Shown: positions 17,853 through 28,498 of the stretch, piece after piece
How the letters are laid out: every line of letters begins with the position of its first letter
How positions within the stretch are numbered: the stretch's first letter is position 1
NCBI GenBank assembly: GCA_016787605.1
Contig: JAEUUE010000015.1
Span: 21,225-85,224 of the forward strand
DNA: 64,000 bases
Direction of reading: 5' to 3'
Source: Cyclobacteriaceae bacterium
GTDB lineage: Bacteria > Bacteroidota > Bacteroidia > Cytophagales > Cyclobacteriaceae
Translations under genes and position numbers: made by a program
Notes under the pieces: generated by a model
Databases searched by the model: none
Seen by the model: only the letters and a program-made list of their open reading frames with translations
What the model was told of the DNA's origin: nothing

Positions 17853-19775
17853 CTAGTTCAACTCGCTGAACCGCTGGGTATCCAGCACTTCGTAGCGGGA
17901 GTAGTTGCTCTTGTACTCAGGGACGAGCTCTTTCATGAGGGCTACCATCTTCAGCTCGTTGCGGTCGTTGATGAGGTCGTGGAAGAGTTCAACGAAGCGG
18001 TTGATTTCTTCGTAGCTGTACTCCTGAACCCGGGCGATCAGGATTTTCTTGTGGTGAGTGGGGATGGTGTTTTCCTGGTTGGACAGCAGTTCTTCGTAAA
18101 GCTTCTCCCCTTCCCGCAGGCCGGTGAAATGGATTTCGATGTCACGATCAGGCTCCAGGCCCGACAGCCAGATCATCTTGCGGGCGAGATCCAGGATCTT
18201 CATGGACTTGCCCATGTCGAACAGGAATATCTCTCCTCCTTTGCCCATGGTCCCTGCTTCCAGCACCAACTGGCAGGCTTCGGGGATGGTCATGAAGTAG
18301 CGGGTGATTTCCGGGTGGGTCACCGTTACAGGGCCACCACTCGCGATTTGCCTTTTGAAAAGAGGGATTACCGAACCATTGGACCCTAACACGTTGCCAA
18401 ACCGGGTAGTCACGAAGGCGGTACGGTGAGGCTTGCCTTCCTGAAAGTTGTTGAGTGACTGCACGTAGATCTCCGCGATGCGCTTTGAGCAACCCATCAC
18501 GTTGGTCGGGTTAACCGCCTTGTCGGTGGAGATCATCACGAACTTCTGCACTCCCACTTCGGCTGAAAGGTCGGCCAATAGTTTCGTACCCAGGATATTG
18601 CAGGCCACCGCCTCCGACGGATGGCTTTCCATCATCGGCACATGCTTGTAGGCCGCCGCATGGTAAACCACGTCGGGACGTTGCTCGGTAAAGATGGCCT
18701 GCATCCGCTCCTTGTTGGTGATATCGGCCAGGCAAATTATGAGCTTGATTCCTGGCGTCAGGGCGACCAGTTCGCGCTCGAGTTCGTAGAGGGCCGACTC
18801 GGCCTGATCAATGGCGATAATGGAATCCGGGTGGTACTGAATGACCTGGTGGACGAGTTCGCGGCCAATGGACCCTGCGGCGCCGGTCACACAGATTCTC
18901 TTACCCTTCAGGTCGCGCTCCACGTTCTCCTTGTTCAGGCGGATGGCTTCGCGCCCCAGGAGGTCTTCGATATTGATCTCCTTGATCTGGCTAAAGCTCA
19001 GTTCTCCCTTCGCCCACTTGTCGATAGGCGGAATGACCCGGACCCTTACCCGGTGCTGAACACAAAGGTCAACCAGCTCATTGCGCCGATCCGGGTCGAT
19101 GTCTTTGGCGGCAATCACCAACTCATCGAACGAACGGTCGCGCAGCAACTGCTCCAGTTCCGGCTTCCGCGCGCTGTAGATCCGCACGCCGTCGAGTACC
19201 TTCCCCACTTTGTCCGGGTTGTCTTCCAGGAAGCCCATGACCCGCATGCGTTTGGATGACTCCACCACATGCCGGGTGATGATCCCCGTCTGGCCCGCTC
19301 CGAAGATCAGCACCCGTGAACGCTTGAGCATCTGGTCTTCGTAATACGAGAAAATGTACTTGACCAGGAGCCGATAGTTGAACAGGAAGAGGAATGACGA
19401 CAGGAAGCTGATCATCACCACCGAGTACGGGACCGGGTAAGGCAGCTTGTTGGAGGCGTAGAACAGGTTGACCCCGACGACAAGGAACAGGTTCAGCATC
19501 ACCATGAAGAAGATGCGGGCGCCATCCTGCAAGCCGGTGTAACGGATGATGCCCTTATAGCTTCCGGTGAGCAGGATGGCAATCAGGCCGCCGACCGAGT
19601 AGACTACTATGCCCCGTTGGTACTCATGGAGGACCAGGTCGTTGAGCGCAAAATTGAATCGAAGGAGAAAACCCAGGAAGACCGAAAAGGAAATGAACGT
19701 CAGGTCGATGAAGATGATGACCCAACGAGGCAGGATCCGGAGGTTCCGGATAAGTTTAATCCACCACTGAATCAC
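17853..19775 (-). CDS. Membrane-bound NDP-sugar 4,6-dehydratase/epimerase (CapD/WbpM/PglF type)
   Basis: 640 aa. Four N-terminal membrane helices (about 18-135) are followed by a first Rossmann-like domain with GAGQTGIITRH (159-169) and a catalytic SDR domain with GAAGSIG (298-304). The active site STDKAV (416-421) with Met427 and Lys431 matches the WbpM/PglF class that makes UDP-4-keto-6-deoxy-GlcNAc. The start is a GTG at 19775, overlapping the stop of the 64-aa gene by 4 bp. Last gene of the polysaccharide locus. With the PglE-, PglD- and PglC-like genes nearby it could begin synthesis of a bacillosamine-type sugar. Confidence 0.92.
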   Translation of the reverse strand: MIQWWIKLIRNLRILPRWVIIFIDLTFISFSVFLGFLLRFNFALNDLVLHEYQRGIVVYSVGGLIAILLTGSYKGIIRYTGLQDGARIFFMVMLNLFLVVGVNLFYASNKLPYPVPYSVVMISFLSSFLFLFNYRLLVKYIFSYYEDQMLKRSRVLIFGAGQTGIITRHVVESSKRMRVMGFLEDNPDKVGKVLDGVRIYSARKPELEQLLRDRSFDELVIAAKDIDPDRRNELVDLCVQHRVRVRVIPPIDKWAKGELSFSQIKEINIEDLLGREAIRLNKENVERDLKGKRICVTGAAGSIGRELVHQVIQYHPDSIIAIDQAESALYELERELVALTPGIKLIICLADITNKERMQAIFTEQRPDVVYHAAAYKHVPMMESHPSEAVACNILGTKLLADLSAEVGVQKFVMISTDKAVNPTNVMGCSKRIAEIYVQSLNNFQEGKPHRTAFVTTRFGNVLGSNGSVIPLFKRQIASGGPVTVTHPEITRYFMTIPEACQLVLEAGTMGKGGEIFLFDMGKSMKILDLARKMIWLSGLEPDRDIEIHFTGLREGEKLYEELLSNQENTIPTHHKKILIARVQEYSYEEINRFVELFHDLINDRNELKMVALMKELVPEYKSNYSRYEVLDTQRFSELN

Positions 19776-19966
19776 TCTTTCTTCGTTGACCTGAACCGTG
19801 AAAGCAACTGACGGACACCCAGCAGCGCGCCCCCACCCAACAGGAACTCAATACCTGAAATCGGAACATCCGGGTCGGGAGGCGGTCCAGGCTGGGCTAT
19901 CCCAGTCATGGGTAGCATTACTATGGCCATTACGGCAACATAAGAGGTCAAAGGCCTGATCTTCAT
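19772..19966 (-). CDS. 64-aa exported protein with exosortase-type C-terminal sorting signal
   Basis: From the ATG at 19966 (a GTG three codons upstream is the alternative) the protein is a signal peptide (residues 1-25, ending TGIAQ), a Pro-rich motif PGPPPDPDVPISG (26-38), a hydrophobic Gly/Leu helix (39-55) and a basic tail (RFRSTKKE). That tripartite layout is the mark of exosortase or related sorting signals. The PI-x-G motif resembles the tiny PID-CTERM proteins of Bacteroidota, with Ser replacing Asp. Nothing else is present between signal peptide and sorting signal. It starts 19 bp after the T9SS cargo gene and overlaps the dehydratase start. An XrtF exosortase is encoded 6 kb upstream in the same locus. 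Confidence 0.72.
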   Translation of the reverse strand: MKIRPLTSYVAVMAIVMLPMTGIAQPGPPPDPDVPISGIEFLLGGGALLGVRQLLSRFRSTKKE

Positions 19967-19985
19967 TAGTGACACTTCCTAGCGG

Positions 19986-22900
19986 TCAATTCTTGATAAA
20001 CTTACGAACGTACACCCTGTTCCCTGCAAATACCTTTATCATGTAAACCCCTCCGGTAAGTGAACCAAGGTCCTTTGATCCGGTCAGCATTCCACTCTCT
20101 TCATGTAACATCATAGCACCCACTTCATTACCCATCAAATCCAGGATTATGACTTCCTTTGAAGCCGACTGATCGGTAACGATCACGGCAATATCTCTCA
20201 TTACCGGGTTCGGATATACTCTAACCACATCGATTGAAGGAGCGCTAATAGCCTTTTCTCCAAACACTATGTAGAATCTGTCAACTGGTTGTGATGCCAA
20301 TGACTCGCTGACATTAAATGTGTATGGACTGCTGTTCAAGTCGTAGACTTCACCTGTAAACTTATCGTGGAGCATTACTGTCTCAGAACTAAACAGACCT
20401 GAAAGTCTGGATTGCAGCATAAAGGAACCCATGCCAATGTCGGATATAGATAAGAAAACTGGGGTGCCATATGGAATCTCCTTTATCAAGTTGATTGCAA
20501 GAGGAACACCATCCCCAGACAGGAATGACAGGTTGAACGAGGGGCTTTTCCTTTTTACAGCGTCAAAGTTATCATAGGTCAAAGCAGCCTTATCATGGAG
20601 TTGAATGTAAGCATAATCCTCATCGGTGCTTCCAACTTCCTTAAGTGCAATTTCCAGGTAATCCGCCTCTTTCTCTGCATTCCGGAGAAATGCAGTAGAT
20701 GTGGATGTCTTTGCCTGCTCATGAATAGTAATTGCCGTCCCACTTACGCCATGAATCCAAAAGCCTTGACCTGCTGCTATTCGTCCGCTGCCAAGGTCAC
20801 CTGTACTGCCGTTCCATGTGCGGTATCCTCCGCTTGTACCTTTGGTTGGGTCCCATACAGAGATAGCATTACTGCCATAGTTGGTCTTTGTCCAGCCCGC
20901 AATTATGTCCCAATCTACTGCACTGGGGTAGGGATTGCCAACGAAATTCCATCCATCGTCTGCTGCACCGGCTGATGCGGTAAAGGTAACAGGAAGCACA
21001 ATACTGCCGGAATTAATCGTCCCGCTCAACGACATGGTTGGAGAGCCTAACACACTTCTTACCAATAAATTGTAACCGCGTCCCGGTGACAACGTGGAGG
21101 TTGTGCTATTGCCTCCGTTAGGAGGGTGTGCAACATAACCATTGGTGAGTACGCCAGCAGCGGCTTCGTTATAGAAGTACATTGACGAGCCGTTTGTTGC
21201 GCATTCCGTACACGGAAAACTTGTTCCTGTAAACGGACCGGTAATGGTAATTCCGCTTGCTATTATCTGACTCACGGTAGGATTTAGAACTTGGGCCGAA
21301 ATATCCCGATAGTGCCTTCCAACTCCTGTAATGAAGCGCTGTACGGCCACGGAACCTGTCACGCTGCCACCGCCGGAGAGATCGCCAATGGAGGCTGTAC
21401 CGGATCCATTAGATATCAATGTAAGGTTGCCCCCGGAGGCGACAGTAGTGGCCGATTGGATATTGAGAAGCCCTGTGAGGTTTACCGCTGAGGAAAGCGT
21501 AACGCTTCCACCGGACTTATTCACGGTGATATTGGCGAATGTCTTCCCTGCTCCTGCCACCACCTGCGCACCACTGCCATTGAGGTTTATCGTGCCGGTA
21601 TTGGCATTAAACGTTCCTCCTGAATTCAACTGCAGGTTCCCGGTAATGTTGACGGTTCCTGTTGGCATGGTAAGGGTAGAACCGCTGTTTGCTGTGACGT
21701 TGCTAAACGTGGGGGTTGATGATGCCGTGATGGTAACGCTGGCTCCACCGGCAATAATGACCGCACCTGTACCTCCTGTGAAGTTACCCGCTCCCTTGTT
21801 CCAAGTAGCTGAACTGCCGCCCATGGTAATGTTGAATCCGTTTGCATCCAAGGTCGAGCTAGTCAACTGCACATTGCCATCAGCCTTGGTGCTTTTGTCG
21901 AGGGTGACAGTCCCGCCATTTATGGTCAGGTTCAATAGCATGTCAGAGGCAACCGTTGGCAACTCAAGGCCAGTTGTCAAAGTGGATCCTGTATAAGTAA
22001 CGCTATAATGTTGCCCGGGGGGCAAATCAGTTGGCGGGTTCCCGCTAAGGGTTCCGTTGGAATTTCTAACCAGCGTTGATCCATTAGCCATTTGAAGGCC
22101 GCTGGTATTGGTAAAGGTACCATTCGTAAGATTGAATGTAGTATTTACAATTAGCTGACTATTCAGCGAGGCTGTACCTGAACTTGAGCGGTTGAAGGTG
22201 AGGGTACCCAACGTGCTATTTACTGAGTTTATTCTCAAGGTGCCAAAAGGGCCACTTCCTCCAATAGTTAGTGTTGAACTACTGCTTGGTGAAAGGTCAC
22301 CACTCCCGCTTCCGGAAAAAGTCCCATTGAGGGTGAGGGTCTGACCCGGAAATGATAGCGATCCGCTTGTAAGGGTCAGAACTCCGGTAATGGTCACATT
22401 ATTTGCAAAAGTCACCCCATTAGAATTGTCCAGCGTAAGATTAGTAAAGGTTTGAGCCCCGGAAGGAAAGGGGAATGTTCCAATTGAACCCGAACCGCTA
22501 ATGGTGATGCTTCCACCGGATCCGATGGTAATGAAGTTTCCACCAGCGGACAGGGTACCGTTGAGGGTTAACGCACCGTTTAGGATATTAAGGTTACCGG
22601 AAGTTAAGGTTAGGTTGGTGGTGATGATGACCGGGACGCCTACAATCAACGAAACACCGCTCGAGTTGTTGACGGTGGTATTGACCCCGGAAGTAGTGGG
22701 ATGGCCATTACCGATGAATTGTCCGGCCAAACCGTTGTAAACTATTGTACATCCTGAATTGTAGGTCCGGCTACCCGATACCCGCACGTTACCGCTCAAT
22801 GTCCCTGTTTGCATTGCACCGCTTGAACTAGTGGATGCTATCTGAAGAGTGCCGTCGACCGTCAGGGTTCCGCTCCCTGCAAGAAAACTTGTTGCCGGGA

Positions 22901-24056
22901 TACTTACCACCGACAAGGCGCTGACATAATAGTTCACAGACCCCGAGGGGACAAGCGATGACGTATAAATTTGAGTTCCTGAGGTGCCCACAAAGTTCAA
23001 GGTTCCTGAACCGGTAGGAGCTGCACTTACCAAAATATCACCTCCGGTAAAATCAACGTTTCCTTGTGCGTTGATTACACCAACAGCCGAAAAAAAAGAA
23101 AAATCGAAAATGCCTCCAGAAATTGAAATATCACCAACGACGTTAATGGAAGCATCAACATCTTCCGCTAACTGAAAATATCCACCGGCGAGGATCATGT
23201 CTCCCGTGATGGTCATTGTACCCGGCGTCGCTGTCTGCGCGATGAAACCTGCCACTCCACCATTGACCACAAAATTGCCACCGATATTCAAGGTCGTATT
23301 GGCGCCACCCATTTGGTTCCAATAGAATCCTCCCACCCCAGTATCATCAATCTGAAAATTACCTGTCACGTTGGACGGAGCTCCGGCCAAGTCAACAAAC
23401 TGATCCCAGTTGGGTGTATTCCATACAAAGTTCCCGAAAGTCTGACTCAGCCCGGTTGGCACGTTAGCGCCACCTGCCCCCAACCCGGTAATTGACATGG
23501 TTGAAGTTGCGTCCCAACCAGCCACAGGGATCGCATTGGCCGTGGTGCCATCAAAAAGATGGAAATAGCTAGAGCCTGCTCGGAAAGTGAGTTTTACGGC
23601 AGTTGAGTTTATGATAGAGCCAGCATTATTAAGCGTGCCATCCACCCTCAAGCGGTTTGAATTGCCTGGAAGGCCCGCAACCATTTGTATAGTCCCATTC
23701 ACATTCAACACACCACCCGAATTAACGCTAATGTCGTCACCTGCTCCCGGCCCAAGCGTCACAGTCACTCCAGCATTAATTGTGAGGGTACCACCGTTTT
23801 GCACGGTGGTTTGGTCTGTTGTGAGAATCGCGGCAACCGTCACAACATGTCCGTTGCGGATGGTTATTGTACCTGAAGTTGAAGTAGGCGCTACCGTTGA
23901 AGGACTTTCCTCGAACGAACCATTCAAGTCAGCATCCCGCTCCCAGGTACCCGGTGTACCCCATGTACCCGATCCTAAAGACCGATAATTACCTGCCTGA
24001 CCAAAGGAAAAGGCATATATCAATTGGAAGGCAACAACCAATAGTTTTGACTTCAT
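19986..24056 (-). CDS. Large secreted beta-solenoid/adhesin-like protein with T9SS type A sorting domain
   Basis: 1356 aa. The signal peptide ends near AFSFGQ. A long Thr/Ser/Gly/Asn-rich region (about 50-1000) follows, made of repeated strands of the type GTLTI..GVTVT.GNL and LTLNGTLSGSG, indicating a right-handed beta-helix or solenoid. A globular module begins near SVAVQRFITGVGRHYRDI. The last 77 residues (from VYPNP at 1280 to VRKFIKN) are a type A T9SS C-terminal domain with the ..GGVYMIKV... strand. The protein should be exported by T9SS and anchored or released at the cell surface. It sits inside the polysaccharide locus, has its own 229-bp upstream gap, and may bind the glycan; that role is inferred. 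Confidence 0.88.
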   Translation of the reverse strand: MKSKLLVVAFQLIYAFSFGQAGNYRSLGSGTWGTPGTWERDADLNGSFEESPSTVAPTSTSGTITIRNGHVVTVAAILTTDQTTVQNGGTLTINAGVTVTLGPGAGDDISVNSGGVLNVNGTIQMVAGLPGNSNRLRVDGTLNNAGSIINSTAVKLTFRAGSSYFHLFDGTTANAIPVAGWDATSTMSITGLGAGGANVPTGLSQTFGNFVWNTPNWDQFVDLAGAPSNVTGNFQIDDTGVGGFYWNQMGGANTTLNIGGNFVVNGGVAGFIAQTATPGTMTITGDMILAGGYFQLAEDVDASINVVGDISISGGIFDFSFFSAVGVINAQGNVDFTGGDILVSAAPTGSGTLNFVGTSGTQIYTSSLVPSGSVNYYVSALSVVSIPATSFLAGSGTLTVDGTLQIASTSSSGAMQTGTLSGNVRVSGSRTYNSGCTIVYNGLAGQFIGNGHPTTSGVNTTVNNSSGVSLIVGVPVIITTNLTLTSGNLNILNGALTLNGTLSAGGNFITIGSGGSITISGSGSIGTFPFPSGAQTFTNLTLDNSNGVTFANNVTITGVLTLTSGSLSFPGQTLTLNGTFSGSGSGDLSPSSSSTLTIGGSGPFGTLRINSVNSTLGTLTFNRSSSGTASLNSQLIVNTTFNLTNGTFTNTSGLQMANGSTLVRNSNGTLSGNPPTDLPPGQHYSVTYTGSTLTTGLELPTVASDMLLNLTINGGTVTLDKSTKADGNVQLTSSTLDANGFNITMGGSSATWNKGAGNFTGGTGAVIIAGGASVTITASSTPTFSNVTANSGSTLTMPTGTVNITGNLQLNSGGTFNANTGTINLNGSGAQVVAGAGKTFANITVNKSGGSVTLSSAVNLTGLLNIQSATTVASGGNLTLISNGSGTASIGDLSGGGSVTGSVAVQRFITGVGRHYRDISAQVLNPTVSQIIASGITITGPFTGTSFPCTECATNGSSMYFYNEAAAGVLTNGYVAHPPNGGNSTTSTLSPGRGYNLLVRSVLGSPTMSLSGTINSGSIVLPVTFTASAGAADDGWNFVGNPYPSAVDWDIIAGWTKTNYGSNAISVWDPTKGTSGGYRTWNGSTGDLGSGRIAAGQGFWIHGVSGTAITIHEQAKTSTSTAFLRNAEKEADYLEIALKEVGSTDEDYAYIQLHDKAALTYDNFDAVKRKSPSFNLSFLSGDGVPLAINLIKEIPYGTPVFLSISDIGMGSFMLQSRLSGLFSSETVMLHDKFTGEVYDLNSSPYTFNVSESLASQPVDRFYIVFGEKAISAPSIDVVRVYPNPVMRDIAVIVTDQSASKEVIILDLMGNEVGAMMLHEESGMLTGSKDLGSLTGGVYMIKVFAGNRVYVRKFIKN

Positions 24057-24092
24057 TCTCTATTTCTTAATTGCTTTCCGTTATCAAAGATT

Positions 24093-24100
24093 CAAAAATA
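24093..24100 (-). promoter_or_regulatory. Putative -7 promoter element (TATTTTTG) for the T9SS cargo gene
   Basis: Minus-strand TATTTTTG lies 36 bp before the ATG at 24056, in the largest non-coding gap of the distal locus (24057-24285). It is identical to the element before the DUF1573 gene. No clear -33 TTG. It suggests that the last three genes can be transcribed separately. Confidence 0.4.
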
Positions 24101-24285
24101 GGTAAAACCTTACATGATTCATACCAGACAACCAGCAACTGTAACCCGAAATTTGGCGAAAACTTGATGTCAGAAGAAGTGATGAACGGTCAAAATCAAT
24201 ACCAACTTAAGTGACTGTAAATCAATAATCTACATCATTTAAAGCCAAGTCTTGGAAATCGAATCGCTAAAAAACTGAAAATCAA

Positions 24286-25383
24286 TTACTTAAGGGCGGA
24301 AAGAACTTCTGAAACAACCGCCGGCGGGGTCACATTATCCGGCCCCATGGGCAATACCAATCCCCTGTCAAATAGGTGGCTAGATAGCGCTAAGCCATGA
24401 CTCTCCGCATGCCGAAATGCAGGCTGTGCATGAAGTGGTTTCCAGAGCCTTCTGCCCTCAATTCCGGCACTGTTCAACTTATCCAGTACATTCTTTGGCA
24501 GCAGACTACCTGGCAGCAAGCAAGCAGTCAGCCATGGCTGAAATCCTCCTAACTCAAGAATTCCTTGAAAAATCAGCCCCTGCTTCTTCCCTTCAGCCCT
24601 ATAGACGCCGTCGATTGAGCGTCGCCTTTCGAAAAGCAGCGGCATTATTTGGAGCTGAGTCATGACATATGCGGCCGTAATTGGGCTCATGCGATAGTTA
24701 TATCCCACCACTTCGTGTTGGTAATATGGCAGATTGGACCGCGCATGCGCCGCGAGGTATCGGGCCTTGGCGATCCAGTCGGCATTCGACGAAACCAATG
24801 CGCCTCCGCCAAAACCTGTTATCGTCTTGTTGCTGTTGAATGAATACACACCGATGTCGCCAATCGTACCGGTCCACTTGCCCCGCCAGGTTGAACCAAA
24901 TGACTCCGCGGCATCTTCAATGACCGGCACGCTGAACTCCCGGCCAATCGCTGCCAGCTCATCCATGTCGGCAGGCACGCCGTAGTTGTGCACGACCACC
25001 ATAGCTCCCACCCTTTTCCCTTCATGTTTGAGTTTCTCCACCGCCCGTCGAACCAGTACCGGGTCGATGTTCCAGGTTTTGGTCTCCGAGTCGACCAACA
25101 CTAAGCGGGCACCGACGTATATCGCCGGGCTTACGGTTGCCACGTACGCGAATGTCGGCGCGATCACATAATCACCTGCATTAACACCAGCCACCTGGAG
25201 GGCCAGGTGCATGGCTGAGGTTCCCGATGTGACCGCCAGCACATTCGGACTGCCTGTCACCACCGACAATTTCTGCTCCAGGTCCCTGATAATCTCTTCG
25301 TGATGACGACCGGCGTATGATTTGAGCACCCGGCTGAGGGTGTCGGGGCCGATCTCGTTGTAGGAAAGGGGGACGGTGATCAA
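24286..25383 (-). CDS. PLP-dependent sugar aminotransferase (DegT/DnrJ/EryC1/StrS, PglE-like)
   Basis: 365 aa. Transfers an amino group to a keto sugar nucleotide. TSGTSAMHLAL near residue 52, the IEDAAESFGS segment near 155 and the Schiff-base Lys186 in YSFNSNKTITGFGGG are all present. The start is a TTG at 25383, as MITVPLSYNEIG fits the family N-terminus and no ATG is close. With the 4,6-dehydratase and PglD-like acetyltransferase it fits the PglF-PglE-PglD series. It follows the exosortase partner gene across a 9-bp repeat array. Confidence 0.9.
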   Translation of the reverse strand: MITVPLSYNEIGPDTLSRVLKSYAGRHHEEIIRDLEQKLSVVTGSPNVLAVTSGTSAMHLALQVAGVNAGDYVIAPTFAYVATVSPAIYVGARLVLVDSETKTWNIDPVLVRRAVEKLKHEGKRVGAMVVVHNYGVPADMDELAAIGREFSVPVIEDAAESFGSTWRGKWTGTIGDIGVYSFNSNKTITGFGGGALVSSNADWIAKARYLAAHARSNLPYYQHEVVGYNYRMSPITAAYVMTQLQIMPLLFERRRSIDGVYRAEGKKQGLIFQGILELGGFQPWLTACLLPGSLLPKNVLDKLNSAGIEGRRLWKPLHAQPAFRHAESHGLALSSHLFDRGLVLPMGPDNVTPPAVVSEVLSALK

Positions 25384-25420
25384 GGTCTTAAATCGAAGGT
25401 TCGAAGATGGCTGATGAGAA

Positions 25421-25492
25421 AGTTCCTAGGGTTCCTGAGGTTCCAAGGGTTCCAAAGGCTCCTAGGGTTCCAGGGGTTGCAAGAGTTCCTGA
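25421..25492. repeat. Array of eight 9-bp GGTTCCNNN units
   Basis: Eight direct 9-bp units (AGTTCCTAG, GGTTCCTGA, GGTTCCAAG, GGTTCCAAA and variants) fill the gap between the exosortase partner gene and the aminotransferase. An open frame across it gives a GTL-rich peptide that is an artefact of the repeat. Confidence 0.9.
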
Positions 25493-25509
25493 AGTTGGGT
25501 GACTCGTAT

Positions 25510-25944
25510 TCAACGGTTTGATTCGTGGCGGCGCTGGTAGTACATGCCGGCGATCAAGATAATCATTAGCAGCGGATTGACGATCATCCGGTGGAGGGGC
25601 TGGAAGACCGGGGAGGAAAGTTCGGTGGGGCCTTCGGCCGAGAGTTTCAGGATGAGGTACAAGGGCAACAGCACGAACAACTCGAACAAGAACACCCACC
25701 AGGCTAACCGGGTGAAGCGCTGGTCCCGGAAGAAGGCCGACACCAGGGCGACGCAGAGTAAGTCGTTGATTACCAGACGGGTCACACGGTTCACAACAAA
25801 CGAACTGGTCTCGGATGGCGATTGGCCTGCCCAGCCCGCCACCCATCCCAGGTAATCGATGCGCTGAAATATATAGACCAGGAACAGGCCGAGAAAAGCA
25901 CCCGCCACGATGATGTTCCGCCGGCTAAACCACTCAGGCCGCAT
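25510..25944 (-). CDS. Exosortase F system-associated membrane protein
   Basis: 144-aa protein with four hydrophobic stretches: about residues 10-26, 58-72, 80-100 and 120-137. The C-terminal pattern R.IVNPLLMIILIAGMYYQRR matches what I recall of the small protein always found beside XrtF. It overlaps the end of the exosortase gene by 11 bp, so the two are translationally coupled. The role is unknown; it may help the exosortase in the inner membrane. Confidence 0.75.
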   Translation of the reverse strand: MRPEWFSRRNIIVAGAFLGLFLVYIFQRIDYLGWVAGWAGQSPSETSSFVVNRVTRLVINDLLCVALVSAFFRDQRFTRLAWWVFLFELFVLLPLYLILKLSAEGPTELSSPVFQPLHRMIVNPLLMIILIAGMYYQRRHESNR

Positions 25945-26476
25945 GATGCTCGACTGGTTTGCCGTTCCACCGCGTCACCCAAAACCACCAAAGCACAAAT
26001 ACGATGACATAGATAACGGCGGTGAAAAAGTATTTGTGGAAGTAATAGAACAACCGCTCGTTGAAGGCCGACAGCCCGAACAGCCAGAGAATGCGTCCGA
26101 GGTTGGCCAGGTGAATGACCAGGAACCCTATGGGTATGAACCAAAGTACCCGTTCGCGACGACCACCATAGGCCAGCACGAAGGACAGGAACACGATCAT
26201 CACATTCAGGCCGTTGCAGCCTTCAAAGACATTCAGCACTTTCCTGGTGCCCTCGAAGACAAACACCGTGGGACCGTCCGGGTTAGGATTTTGGGATGCG
26301 TCTGCGCCGAAGAACGATAGGATAGCCACCACTTCCCGGCTCACCTCCGAGGTCATAAAATCCGGAACCTTGCCGAGGGACTCAATCCAAAACCCATACA
26401 GCAGGCTGAGCACCAGGTAGCACCCCAGGAAGATGCCCAGGAAGCGGAGCGCGGGTTTTACTTCACCCAGCTTCAT
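25934..26476 (-). CDS. xrtF: Exosortase family protein, XrtF type
   Basis: Inner-membrane cysteine transpeptidase-like enzyme expected to cut and transfer proteins with a C-terminal sorting signal. 180 aa from the ATG at 26476. Four to five membrane helices. Catalytic residues of the family are visible: Cys87 in VFEGCNGLNVMIVFLSF, Arg128 in HLANLGRIL, and His147 in YYFHKYFFTAVIY. Length and the coupled partner gene favour XrtF rather than the larger XrtN, XrtX or XrtY. The start overlaps the PglD-like stop by 4 bp. The gene sits inside the sugar-precursor set, unlike a free-standing sortase. Confidence 0.85.
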   Translation of the reverse strand: MKLGEVKPALRFLGIFLGCYLVLSLLYGFWIESLGKVPDFMTSEVSREVVAILSFFGADASQNPNPDGPTVFVFEGTRKVLNVFEGCNGLNVMIVFLSFVLAYGGRRERVLWFIPIGFLVIHLANLGRILWLFGLSAFNERLFYYFHKYFFTAVIYVIVFVLWWFWVTRWNGKPVEHHAA

Positions 26477-27117
26477 GAAGCGGAAGGGACATGTTGTGCC
26501 GGCACCCCGATGAGACGGCTGGAGGCCGGAAACGACTTGGTGACTACCGCACCGGCACCGATCACGCTTTTTTCCCCCAACGTGATGCCCTGAAGGATGC
26601 GTGCGCCCGCCCCCACAAAGACTTCTTCCCCGAAGAGCACATTGCCTGAGATGCTGCACTGGGGCATTACGGAGCAGTAATCACTTAAACGACTGTCGTG
26701 ACCCACTGTTGTAGCCAGGTTGATGATGGAAAATTCCCCTACAGAAATACCCGTGGTGAGGATCACACCGGCCGTGATGATACAGCCACGGCCGAACTTG
26801 TTGGAAGGTGAGCCGAGTCGTGCTGTTGGATGAACTACTTGTGGGAATGATATCTTTCGATTGGTAATGGATGTCACTACCTTCTTTCTCGTCGCCGGAT
26901 CGGCAATTGCGACAACGACATCTATCGTCTCCGTCGTGGCATTCAGTTCCGTCATTCCGCCCAAGACAGGTAGCCCCTCAATTACAGCTCCCCTCTTCTC
27001 CCCGTCATCAAAAAAGCCTACCAGGTTCCACGTGTCAGCAGCCTGATTGATCTCCTGGATGAGCCAGGCCGTCTCCCGGCCGAATCCGCCGGCGCCGTAA
27101 ACTGCGATGTCTTTCAT
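26473..27117 (-). CDS. Sugar O/N-acetyltransferase, NeuD/PglD family
   Basis: 214 aa. The N-terminal Rossmann-like part MKDIAVYGAGGFGRETAW binds the sugar nucleotide. The C-terminal left-handed beta-helix of hexapeptide repeats (from GCIITAGVILTTG to GAGAVVTKSFPASSRLIGVPA) has the acetyl-CoA site; His100 or His126 (TTVGHDS) is a candidate catalytic base. With the PglE-like aminotransferase it probably acetylates an aminosugar. Confidence 0.9.
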   Translation of the reverse strand: MKDIAVYGAGGFGRETAWLIQEINQAADTWNLVGFFDDGEKRGAVIEGLPVLGGMTELNATTETIDVVVAIADPATRKKVVTSITNRKISFPQVVHPTARLGSPSNKFGRGCIITAGVILTTGISVGEFSIINLATTVGHDSRLSDYCSVMPQCSISGNVLFGEEVFVGAGARILQGITLGEKSVIGAGAVVTKSFPASSRLIGVPAQHVPSAS

Positions 27118-27277: not shown

Positions 27278-27865
27278 TCAGTTGGAGCCGGTGAATGGTA
27301 GCTCTTCGAGGGAGGTGTCTTTCCGGAACGAAAGCAGCAGTTGAAAGGTCTTGAAGATGATCTTCAGGTCCACCCAGAAGGACTGGTGGTCGACGTACCA
27401 GTTATCCAGTTCGAACTTCTTCGTCCAGGGGATGCCGTGGCGGCCATTGACCTGGGCCCAGCCGGTGATCCCGGGCCTGACCGCAAATCGCTTCCGCTGT
27501 TCAGCCGAAAAGAGGGGTTGATAGGCGACCGGCAAAGGCCTCGGGCCCACCAGCGACATCTCCCCTTTCAGGACATTCCAGAGTTGGGGAAGCTCATCGA
27601 GGCTGAGAAACCGGAGCATGGATCCCAAGACGAACTTCCTCTTATCCAGGGGCAGCTGCTCATCTTGTTTCAGGGTCCGGAATTTGTAAAGCACAAATGC
27701 CCTCTCATTCTTACCTAACCGCTCCTGCCGGAAGAACAGGGATCGCTCGCCGGTGAGGAGGTAAAGAAGTCCAACGAGCAGAAAGAGCCAGCTCAGCAGC
27801 ACCAGCAGAATCGCTGCTGCGAGGGTATCCCCCAAACTCTTTATAAAAGAGTAGACTGAACTCAT
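27278..27865 (-). CDS. Initiating sugar-phosphate transferase (PglC/WcaJ-C type)
   Basis: 195 aa. Transfers a sugar phosphate from an NDP-sugar to undecaprenyl phosphate. A single N-terminal re-entrant helix (about 12-38), then the FFRQERLGK, YKFRTLK and DELPQLWNVLKGEMSLVGPRPL blocks with the Asp-Glu catalytic pair, and GITGWAQVNGRHGI. Size and the ITGWAQVNGR block fit PglC-type enzymes. It neighbours the PglD- and PglE-like genes, so the acceptor sugar may be bacillosamine-like. Confidence 0.93.
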   Translation of the reverse strand: MSSVYSFIKSLGDTLAAAILLVLLSWLFLLVGLLYLLTGERSLFFRQERLGKNERAFVLYKFRTLKQDEQLPLDKRKFVLGSMLRFLSLDELPQLWNVLKGEMSLVGPRPLPVAYQPLFSAEQRKRFAVRPGITGWAQVNGRHGIPWTKKFELDNWYVDHQSFWVDLKIIFKTFQLLLSFRKDTSLEELPFTGSN

Positions 27866-27907: not shown

Positions 27908-28498
27908 CTATTTAAAGATATGAACGATTGTCAGCACAATGATCCTCACATCCGTCCAGAACGACTGCTCCCGGATGTATTTGAGGTTCAGCTCCAGTTT
28001 CTTCGGGAGAATCTCCTTCACATAGAAGTCAATGGGATCCTGCTTCCCTTCGAGCAGCTCGTTTTCATTCCGGAACTCCAGGGAGGCATAATCCGTAATC
28101 CCGGGGGTGACCTCGATTACCTTACGCTGATCTCCCTGGTAGAGATCCACAAATCGCTTCAACTCCGGCCGGGGGCCCACCAGCGACATCTCCCCTTTCA
28201 AGACATTGATCAGCTGGGGCAATTCATCCAGTTTAAACCGGCGCAGGAAGTACCCGACGGAGGTGATCCGTGGATCCCGCTGACCCACGGTAATCGCCGT
28301 GGCCTTGTCGGCCCCCACCCGCATAGTGCGGAACTTGAATAACCGGAAGATCATACCTCCCCTGCCCACCCGTTCCTGGAGGTAGAACACCGGGCCGCGG
28401 CTATCGACCTTGATAGCGGCGGCGAAAACCAAAAAAAATGGAGCCAGTATCACCAGCCCCACCGCGGAGACTACCAGGTCGAGAAGTCGTTTAGCCAT
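27908..28498 (-). CDS. Second initiating sugar-phosphate transferase
   Basis: 196 aa. Blocks FYLQERVGRGG, FKFRTMR, DELPQLINVLKGEMSLVGPRPE and ITDYASLEF mark the same superfamily as the preceding entry, but with YASLEFRNE replacing the WAQVNGR block. The paralogues are not a simple duplication: they differ in C-terminal half and probably in donor sugar. It overlaps the aminotransferase gene by 8 bp. Confidence 0.92.
   Translation of the reverse strand: MAKRLLDLVVSAVGLVILAPFFLVFAAAIKVDSRGPVFYLQERVGRGGMIFRLFKFRTMRVGADKATAITVGQRDPRITSVGYFLRRFKLDELPQLINVLKGEMSLVGPRPELKRFVDLYQGDQRKVIEVTPGITDYASLEFRNENELLEGKQDPIDFYVKEILPKKLELNLKYIREQSFWTDVRIIVLTIVHIFK

Follow-up and report, generated by a model that had tools for sequence, protein, structure and literature searches.

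A stretch of 64,000 nucleotides from a Cyclobacteriaceae bacterium (GCA_016787605.1, contig JAEUUE010000015.1, positions 21,225 to 85,224 of the forward strand; hereafter the window) encodes an exosortase of the XrtF family, its membrane-protein partner and, on the same strand, a protein of 64 amino acids (aa) that is very probably a dedicated substrate of this enzyme. We propose this relation because homologues of the small protein occur in 209 of the 227 Bacteroidia genomes with an XrtF-family hit and in 5 of the 169 without one, and because the linkage of the two genes is conserved. The predicted enzyme-substrate relation appears real and well supported. Its sorting signal is only partly new, being a variant branch of one that NCBIfam has already curated as PID_CTERM.

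Co-occurrence and linkage of xrtF and the small gene

For the class-wide comparison, 396 Bacteroidia genomes were drawn evenly (completeness of at least 90% requested), and an exosortase was called with TIGR04128 at E ≤ 1e-5, a threshold that also admits XrtX-like relatives. The small protein was searched with two full-length profiles, a narrower (A1) and a broader one (A5); A1 was seeded from loci near xrtF, and the searches spanned whole genomes, the exosortase-negative ones included. With A5, which gave the fractions above, both proteins were found in 209 genomes, the exosortase only in 18, the small protein only in 5 and neither in 164, and with A1 the corresponding numbers were 192, 35, 4 and 165. 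Counted per genus, an exosortase hit was present in 111 of 198 and the small protein in 103 of 198. A first-pass annotation of the window, made by a model from the letters alone, had suggested the pairing, had called for this kind of search and had named homologues common in genomes without an exosortase as the outcome that would speak against it; the search was run here and that outcome was not seen. Its proposal of a substrate is thereby supported as far as co-occurrence and linkage go, and we infer the processing.

Among 58 near relatives (thresholds of E ≤ 1e-3 for XrtF and E ≤ 1e-8 for a strong small-protein hit), 32 had both proteins, 18 neither, 4 the small protein only and 4 XrtF only. 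Contig ends possibly account for most of these eight split genomes. The contigs of three small-only genomes (G034, G029, G010) start inside the type IX secretion system (T9SS) gene that precedes the small gene, and that of G004 starts about 0.95 kb before the small gene, so that xrtF may be off the contig. Downstream of xrtF, the contig runs on for 4.6, 5.2 and 6.8 kb in three XrtF-only relatives (G012, G022, G013), and in a fourth (G021) the enzyme is split across two contigs; because 6.8 kb is more than the usual distance, the gene may truly be absent from this place in G013. The small-only genomes of the class sample are four of one genus, in about 210-420 contigs (G289, G306, G390, G407), and G449. 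An exosortase hit above the cut-off was found in none of eight small-only genomes (G289, G306, G390, G449, G034, G029, G010, G004).

For the linkage, named genomes were scanned and the best 80 of 92 XrtF loci were used; most come from Cyclobacteriaceae and their relatives, among them Marivirga, Fulvivirga and Chryseolinea. In 50 of the 80, xrtF and the small gene are no more than 10 kb apart: 49 loci have the small gene on the strand of xrtF, 3.0-8.2 kb downstream (median 6.5 kb), and one (L125) has it upstream. The downstream DNA of the other 30 loci is shorter than 5 kb in 19, 5.2-7.1 kb in 3 and about 10 kb in 8; all of the last eight genomes have a copy elsewhere, and in L106 and L109 the gene is just past 10 kb. 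Homologues of pglD, xrtF, the partner gene, pglE, the T9SS gene, the small gene and pglF are all contained in 46 of the 50 linked loci; 38 of the 46 follow the order of the window with pglC in the locus, and in some pglE precedes xrtF. A PglE homologue is found in all 50, and in 47 a PglF homologue follows the small gene at no more than 2 kb. Two marks of a dedicated pair, a single target per genome and its proximity to the enzyme, were found in the form of one strong small-protein hit in each of the 28 same-genus genomes having any (the window genome included) and of the 50 linked loci among the 80.

The enzyme, the small protein and the PID-CTERM family

The window enzyme and its partner pass the curated cut-offs of TIGR04128 and TIGR04127, respectively (Table 1), and the XrtX model scores the enzyme at 126.5 bits, under its cut-off of 170. 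The first-pass annotation had described the catalytic residues as intact, and Cys87 (codon 26216-26218), Arg128 (26093-26095) and His147 (26036-26038) proved to be unvarying in 28 aligned exosortases and also in an alignment of 47 sequences; the 11-bp overlap that it reported between xrtF and the gene of the 144-aa partner spans 25934-25944. The active-site context is of the EGCN type. The AlphaFold2 model of XrtF is mostly helical and confident (predicted local distance difference test, pLDDT, 88.5; predicted template modelling score, pTM, 0.82), and among solved structures there was no sequence match to XrtF at E ≤ 1 and no fold match to the model at E ≤ 0.001.

The small gene starts 6.0 kb from the xrtF stop and 5.5 kb from the partner stop, in agreement with the earlier placement about 6 kb downstream on the same strand, and its open reading frame (ORF) gives 64 aa from an ATG or 67 aa from an upstream GTG. 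The four parts that had been read from the letters were found again, namely a signal peptide, the Pro-rich PI-S-G segment QPGPPPDPDVPISGIE, a hydrophobic stretch predicted to be a helix and a basic tail. Scanning the DNA around XrtF in relatives returned homologues repeatedly, and in alignment A1 (25 sequences) P35, G38 and G46 are invariant. The ratio of non-synonymous to synonymous substitutions (Kn/Ks) is 0.09-0.28 in 10 of 13 close pairs (Ks is saturated in the other three), and the close pairs are under purifying selection. These ratios, together with the recurrence of homologues in a conserved order, argue that the small gene is a real coding gene.

We examined 130 family sequences, in two of which no motif was parsed; the 128 distinct members with a parsed motif have precursors of 56-92 aa (median 67). 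The members share one plan: after the signal peptide, whose end is often A-Q, come a stretch rich in Pro, Gly and Asp, the motif P-[ILVF]-[DSTG]-G, a helix and finally a basic end. With signal-peptide cut sites set by a simple rule of our own in 127 members, 7-35 aa (median 16) lie between the predicted cut and the motif Pro, Gln stands at +1 in 64, and 36 have a Cys pair in the mature segment. Over the family, Pro makes up 36%, Gly 18% and Asp 10% of the last 13 residues up to and including the motif Pro. The suggestion of the first-pass annotation that the entire mature part is the recognition signal was not upheld, because this variable segment precedes the motif. Small proteins from across the class (for example L246, L253 and L257) often have a Cys pair such as CWPPPC right before PIDGG, which may form a disulfide.

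The window protein has all the C-terminal traits of PID-CTERM proteins (motif, helix and basic tail), and sequences from PISGIE through PIDGG form one alignable family with intermediates, for example the PIDGV of L156. By sequence we place the window signal inside the PID-CTERM family, as a variant branch with PI-[ST]-G-[IVL] where PID_CTERM has PIDGG, and not outside it as an unrelated signal. The PID_CTERM model (NF046080) matches 74 of 87 family members, a figure that counts matches at E ≤ 10 and not at the curated cut-off, and it scores the window protein below that cut-off (Table 1). The small protein does not belong to PEP-CTERM: there is no PEP in the sequence, and NF046080 is the sole model listed for it. 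From neighbouring accession numbers we take NF046080 to be intended for XrtX, and those who built the NCBIfam models may already know of the pairing of XrtF with the small protein.

The motif varies with the enzyme. Among enzyme and small-protein pairs taken from the same locus, 56 of the 68 rows with an EGC enzyme have Ser or Thr after PI, as against 0 of the 24 with another active-site context, and DGG after the motif start dominates the latter (21 of 24); some genomes are counted twice in these rows, and L120, L121 and L123 are near-identical loci. The enzyme of L317, for one, has the context HVCN. All 20 enzymes in a set of Flavobacteriaceae and other families are EGCN, and the small proteins in the genomes of that set include PIDGG, PIDDG and PINEN types, so that the rule joining Ser/Thr to EGC runs one way only.

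Gene neighbourhood, proposed mechanism and alternatives

The minus strand of the window reads, in order, PglC-like enzyme, PglD-type acetyltransferase, xrtF, partner, PglE-like enzyme, T9SS type A protein, 64-aa gene and PglF-like enzyme (Table 1). The first-pass annotation included neither the T9SS gene that immediately precedes the small gene nor the pgl-like block. By our reading of the letters, the small gene starts 19 bp past the T9SS stop and ends in a stop codon that overlaps the GTG with which the dehydratase gene begins (GTGA, 19772-19775); this gap and overlap suggest that the three genes are on one transcript.

Table 1. Features of the xrtF block in the window.
Feature	Coordinates	Strand	Basis
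Candidate XrtF substrate, PID-CTERM-like, 64 aa	19772..19966	-	ORF and homologues; NF046080 13.1-13.2 bits, cut-off 26
Small protein: signal peptide, residues 1-24, predicted cut before Gln25	19895..19966	-	Sequence reading
Small protein: Pro-rich mature segment QPGPPPDPDVP, residues 25-35	19862..19894	-	Sequence reading
Small protein: putative PISGIE sorting motif, residues 35-40	19847..19864	-	P35 and G38 invariant in alignment A1
Small protein: predicted hydrophobic helix of sorting signal, residues 41-55	19802..19846	-	Sequence reading; aligned in A1
Small protein: basic C-terminal tail, residues 56-64	19775..19801	-	Sequence reading
XrtF exosortase, 180 aa	25934..26476	-	TIGR04128 116.6 bits, cut-off 90
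XrtF-associated membrane protein, 144 aa	25510..25944	-	TIGR04127 41.1 bits, cut-off 35
Repetitive protein with T9SS type A sorting domain, 1356 aa	19986..24056	-	TIGR04183 35.6 bits (cut-off 23); PF18962 33.9 bits (cut-off 27)
DegT-type sugar aminotransferase, PglE-like by resemblance	24286..25383	-	LegC family 280 bits, below cut-off 420
Nucleotide-sugar 4,6-dehydratase, 640 aa, PglF/CapD-like by resemblance	17853..19775	-	PseB model 188 bits, below cut-off 407.75
Sugar acetyltransferase, NeuD/PglB/VioB family	26473..27117	-	TIGR03570 197.6 bits, cut-off 160.8
Polyprenyl-phosphate sugar transferase, PglC-like by resemblance	27278..27865	-	TIGR03025 217.6 bits, below cut-off 295.55
Second polyprenyl-phosphate sugar transferase	27908..28498	-	TIGR03025 231.9 bits, below cut-off 295.55

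The sugar genes of the block resemble pglC, pglD, pglE and pglF, and the pgl pathway leads to a sugar of the di-N-acetylbacillosamine type; as a lead, the genes suggest such a sugar in the acceptor of XrtF. Past the xrtF block, at 28491-50589, further ORFs look by eye like glycan genes. Two of the proteins encoded there are a 621-aa protein that resembles NodU (129 bits, below the cut-off of 1000) and a 471-aa protein that resembles asparagine synthase, also below cut-off, and has a weak match to an XrtA/PEP-CTERM amidotransferase (20.1 bits, below cut-off).

The T9SS neighbour recurs. The small gene of every one of the 50 linked loci is immediately preceded by a gene for a protein of more than 500 aa, and TIGR04183 matches the C-terminus of that protein in 50 of 50. 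Among 80 further loci (60 hand-picked from the class matches listed and 20 targeted), 65 have an ORF of 90 aa or longer no farther than 400 bp upstream; a profile made from the 50 finds 44 of these 65 to be T9SS-like versus 11 of 348 other ORFs of at least 150 aa in the same stretches, and of the 66 C-termini given by the 65 and the window, 50 match TIGR04183. The 60 class loci comprise 30 with a T9SS neighbour and 17, from other families, with an exosortase gene directly downstream of the small gene, 5 having both, and 18 have neither. A T9SS neighbour by chance is unlikely, given 22 T9SS type A matches in the 4.0 Mb of the window genome. The upstream giants were also considered as one conserved class-wide family, and this was rejected, as only 9 of 54 (at least 350 aa) match a profile of the first 700 residues of the cluster giants, some giants being cut by the fetched stretches; the recurring features are the T9SS C-terminus and the position. 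The T9SS protein of the window had no sequence match among solved structures at E ≤ 0.01. In G013, one locus (L071:91-4114, on G013:C3) has a T9SS type A protein, two overlapping short frames, one with a signal peptide and a Pro-rich part and one with an APLDPLSW tail and a basic end, and then a 196-aa ORF that is a second exosortase-like gene, nearest to the XrtX and XrtY models and below their cut-offs.

On the mechanism that we propose, the small protein would be exported through Sec, signal peptidase would cleave it ahead of Gln25, and its C-terminal helix would hold it in the inner membrane. XrtF, through Cys87, Arg128 and His147, would cut at or near PI-S-G and transfer the new C-terminus of a short peptide (roughly QPGPPPDPDVP with one or two more residues) to an acceptor, for which a glycan, either lipid-linked or extracellular, with a sugar from the neighbouring pgl-like enzymes is the likeliest choice. 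The surface polymer, once it bears the peptide, could act jointly with the T9SS-secreted neighbour in surface adhesion or matrix formation. We are much less sure of the acceptor and of the T9SS partnership than of the enzyme-substrate relation. A broader proposal, which we put forward tentatively and consider doubtful, is that XrtF is a peptide tagger and not a protein sorter: its sole cargo would be a Pro-rich ribosomal peptide of about 12 residues, joined to a surface glycan or glycolipid and matched with the upstream T9SS protein, so that exosortase and T9SS would build one two-part surface structure across much of Bacteroidia.

Several observations weigh against a dedicated substrate and against the mechanism built on it. 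The relation rests on comparative genomics, and we infer cleavage, acceptor, function and localisation. Shared ancestry makes the p values, such as the Fisher p of 1e-82 for A5, overstate independence; one of the 209 genomes with both proteins (G138) is a false match to an exosortase frame, leaving 208; the small protein is missing by A5 from 18 of the 227 genomes with an XrtF-family hit; and only 57 of the 396 genomes pass the XrtF cut-off itself. The PID_CTERM model does not call the window protein (13.1 versus 26 bits). No small gene was found in the three loci with 5.2-7.1 kb of downstream DNA, for which the whole-genome search, covering only the eight loci with about 10 kb, says nothing, and none was found near xrtF in 20 loci of other families, mostly Flavobacteriaceae. 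In these 20, pglC, pglD and pglE homologues flank xrtF in one (L240), and two more contain a pglF homologue. Lastly, only the acetyltransferase among the sugar genes passes its family cut-off, so that the sugar pathway is assigned by resemblance and is a lead.

The small protein might instead stay uncleaved, as a bitopic membrane accessory of XrtF or of the T9SS export of the giant, the co-occurrence then reflecting membership of a complex. The T9SS type A C-terminus upstream in 50 of 50 cluster loci and at 50 of 66 further C-termini would suit such an accessory, as would the fact that processing leaves hardly any folded mature domain; we nevertheless hold it to be improbable, because the C-terminus has the three parts of the signals that sortases and exosortases recognise, the curated sorting model PID_CTERM matches relatives (at the permissive threshold given above), motif and active-site context co-vary, and in 12 of 60 class loci the small gene precedes an exosortase gene without a T9SS neighbour. 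A dedicated substrate could also be one of several, with further and longer substrates of XrtF. Some genomes have several small copies (5 in G047), and our full-length profiles favour small signal-peptide proteins, so that carriers of the C-terminal signal alone could be missed; set against this are the single strong family hit per same-genus genome and the search of the window genome with NF046080 at E ≤ 10, which gave the small protein and two weak long-frame matches, all below cut-off, and we consider longer substrates possible but unlikely.

For the acceptor the balance is closer. That it does not carry a pgl-type sugar, the block being a general polysaccharide locus whose link with XrtF is incidental, has somewhat less than an even chance in our view: xrtF is mostly apart from pgl-like genes in the 20 loci of other families, and glycan-like ORFs, judged by eye, continue upstream in the window to about 50 kb, but the pgl-like gene set is retained in 46 of the 50 linked loci, and pglC, pglD and pglE homologues also flank xrtF in the distant family of L240.

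Comparison with known systems

The literature considered here consists of passages from open-licence papers. According to these, XrtF of Flavobacterium johnsoniae is needed for biofilm and surface colonisation, deletion of xrtF or of the partner gene leaves much less biofilm and no zorbs, and deletions of porU, porV, porZ and sprA give that same loss (PMC10936215); a role of the tagged polymer in surface adhesion would fit these phenotypes. The same source predicts that XrtF substrates differ from PEP-CTERM and are still to be studied, and a 2025 paper states that the target proteins are not yet known (PMC12188702). The earlier statement that no firm sorting signal has been assigned to XrtF agrees with the passages of both papers and is qualified by NCBIfam, which already names PID_CTERM. 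Exosortases have been discussed beside T9SS as linking sugars, in a passage that does not name XrtF (PMC7468200). In the open-licence literature searched, no paper on PID-CTERM was found, no title among the matches listed concerned exosortase X or Y, and an exosortase-T9SS link of the present kind was not found in the passages seen. A hypothetical F. johnsoniae gene, Fjoh_0651, complemented by a 434-bp fragment that includes the promoter, has the phenotype row of the xrtF mutant, a row also shown by the porU, porZ, Fjoh_0334 and Fjoh_1449 mutants, several of them T9SS mutants (PMC10936215), and from this row, not from its sequence, it could be a candidate substrate of XrtF in that species. In three loci of family f71 (L313, L335, L338), the small gene lies about 360-380 bp behind an ORF that resembles methylmalonyl-CoA epimerase, identified by eye in two of the three, and this neighbour is a possible guide to the small gene of F. 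johnsoniae.

A candidate XrtF substrate family with a strong phylogenetic match is now named, a signal variant is added that the current NCBIfam model does not call, and the loci point to an exosortase-T9SS link that deserves testing; the question of the XrtF targets becomes directly testable. The closest relative is PID-CTERM (NF046080) with exosortase X (NF046081), whose short proteins likewise combine a signal peptide and a PI motif with a helix and a basic tail. The window branch differs in carrying PI-[ST]-G-[IVL] where PID-CTERM has PIDGG, in scoring below the cut-off and in its EGCN-type enzyme, the only type with which the variant was seen here. The XrtF of F. johnsoniae (Fjoh_1448) belongs to the same family above the TIGR04128 cut-off and has an adjacent TIGR04127 partner; its substrates are not named in the passages cited (PMC10936215, PMC12188702), whereas the window copy sits in a pgl-like block with a candidate substrate. 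PEP-CTERM/exosortase and GlyGly-CTERM/rhombosortase share the three-part C-terminal signal and, as passages of PMC3237569 have it, the idea of a dedicated pair of one enzyme and one target encoded close together. PEP-CTERM species often have twenty or more such proteins (PMC3237569), whereas here there is usually one, and it is very short.

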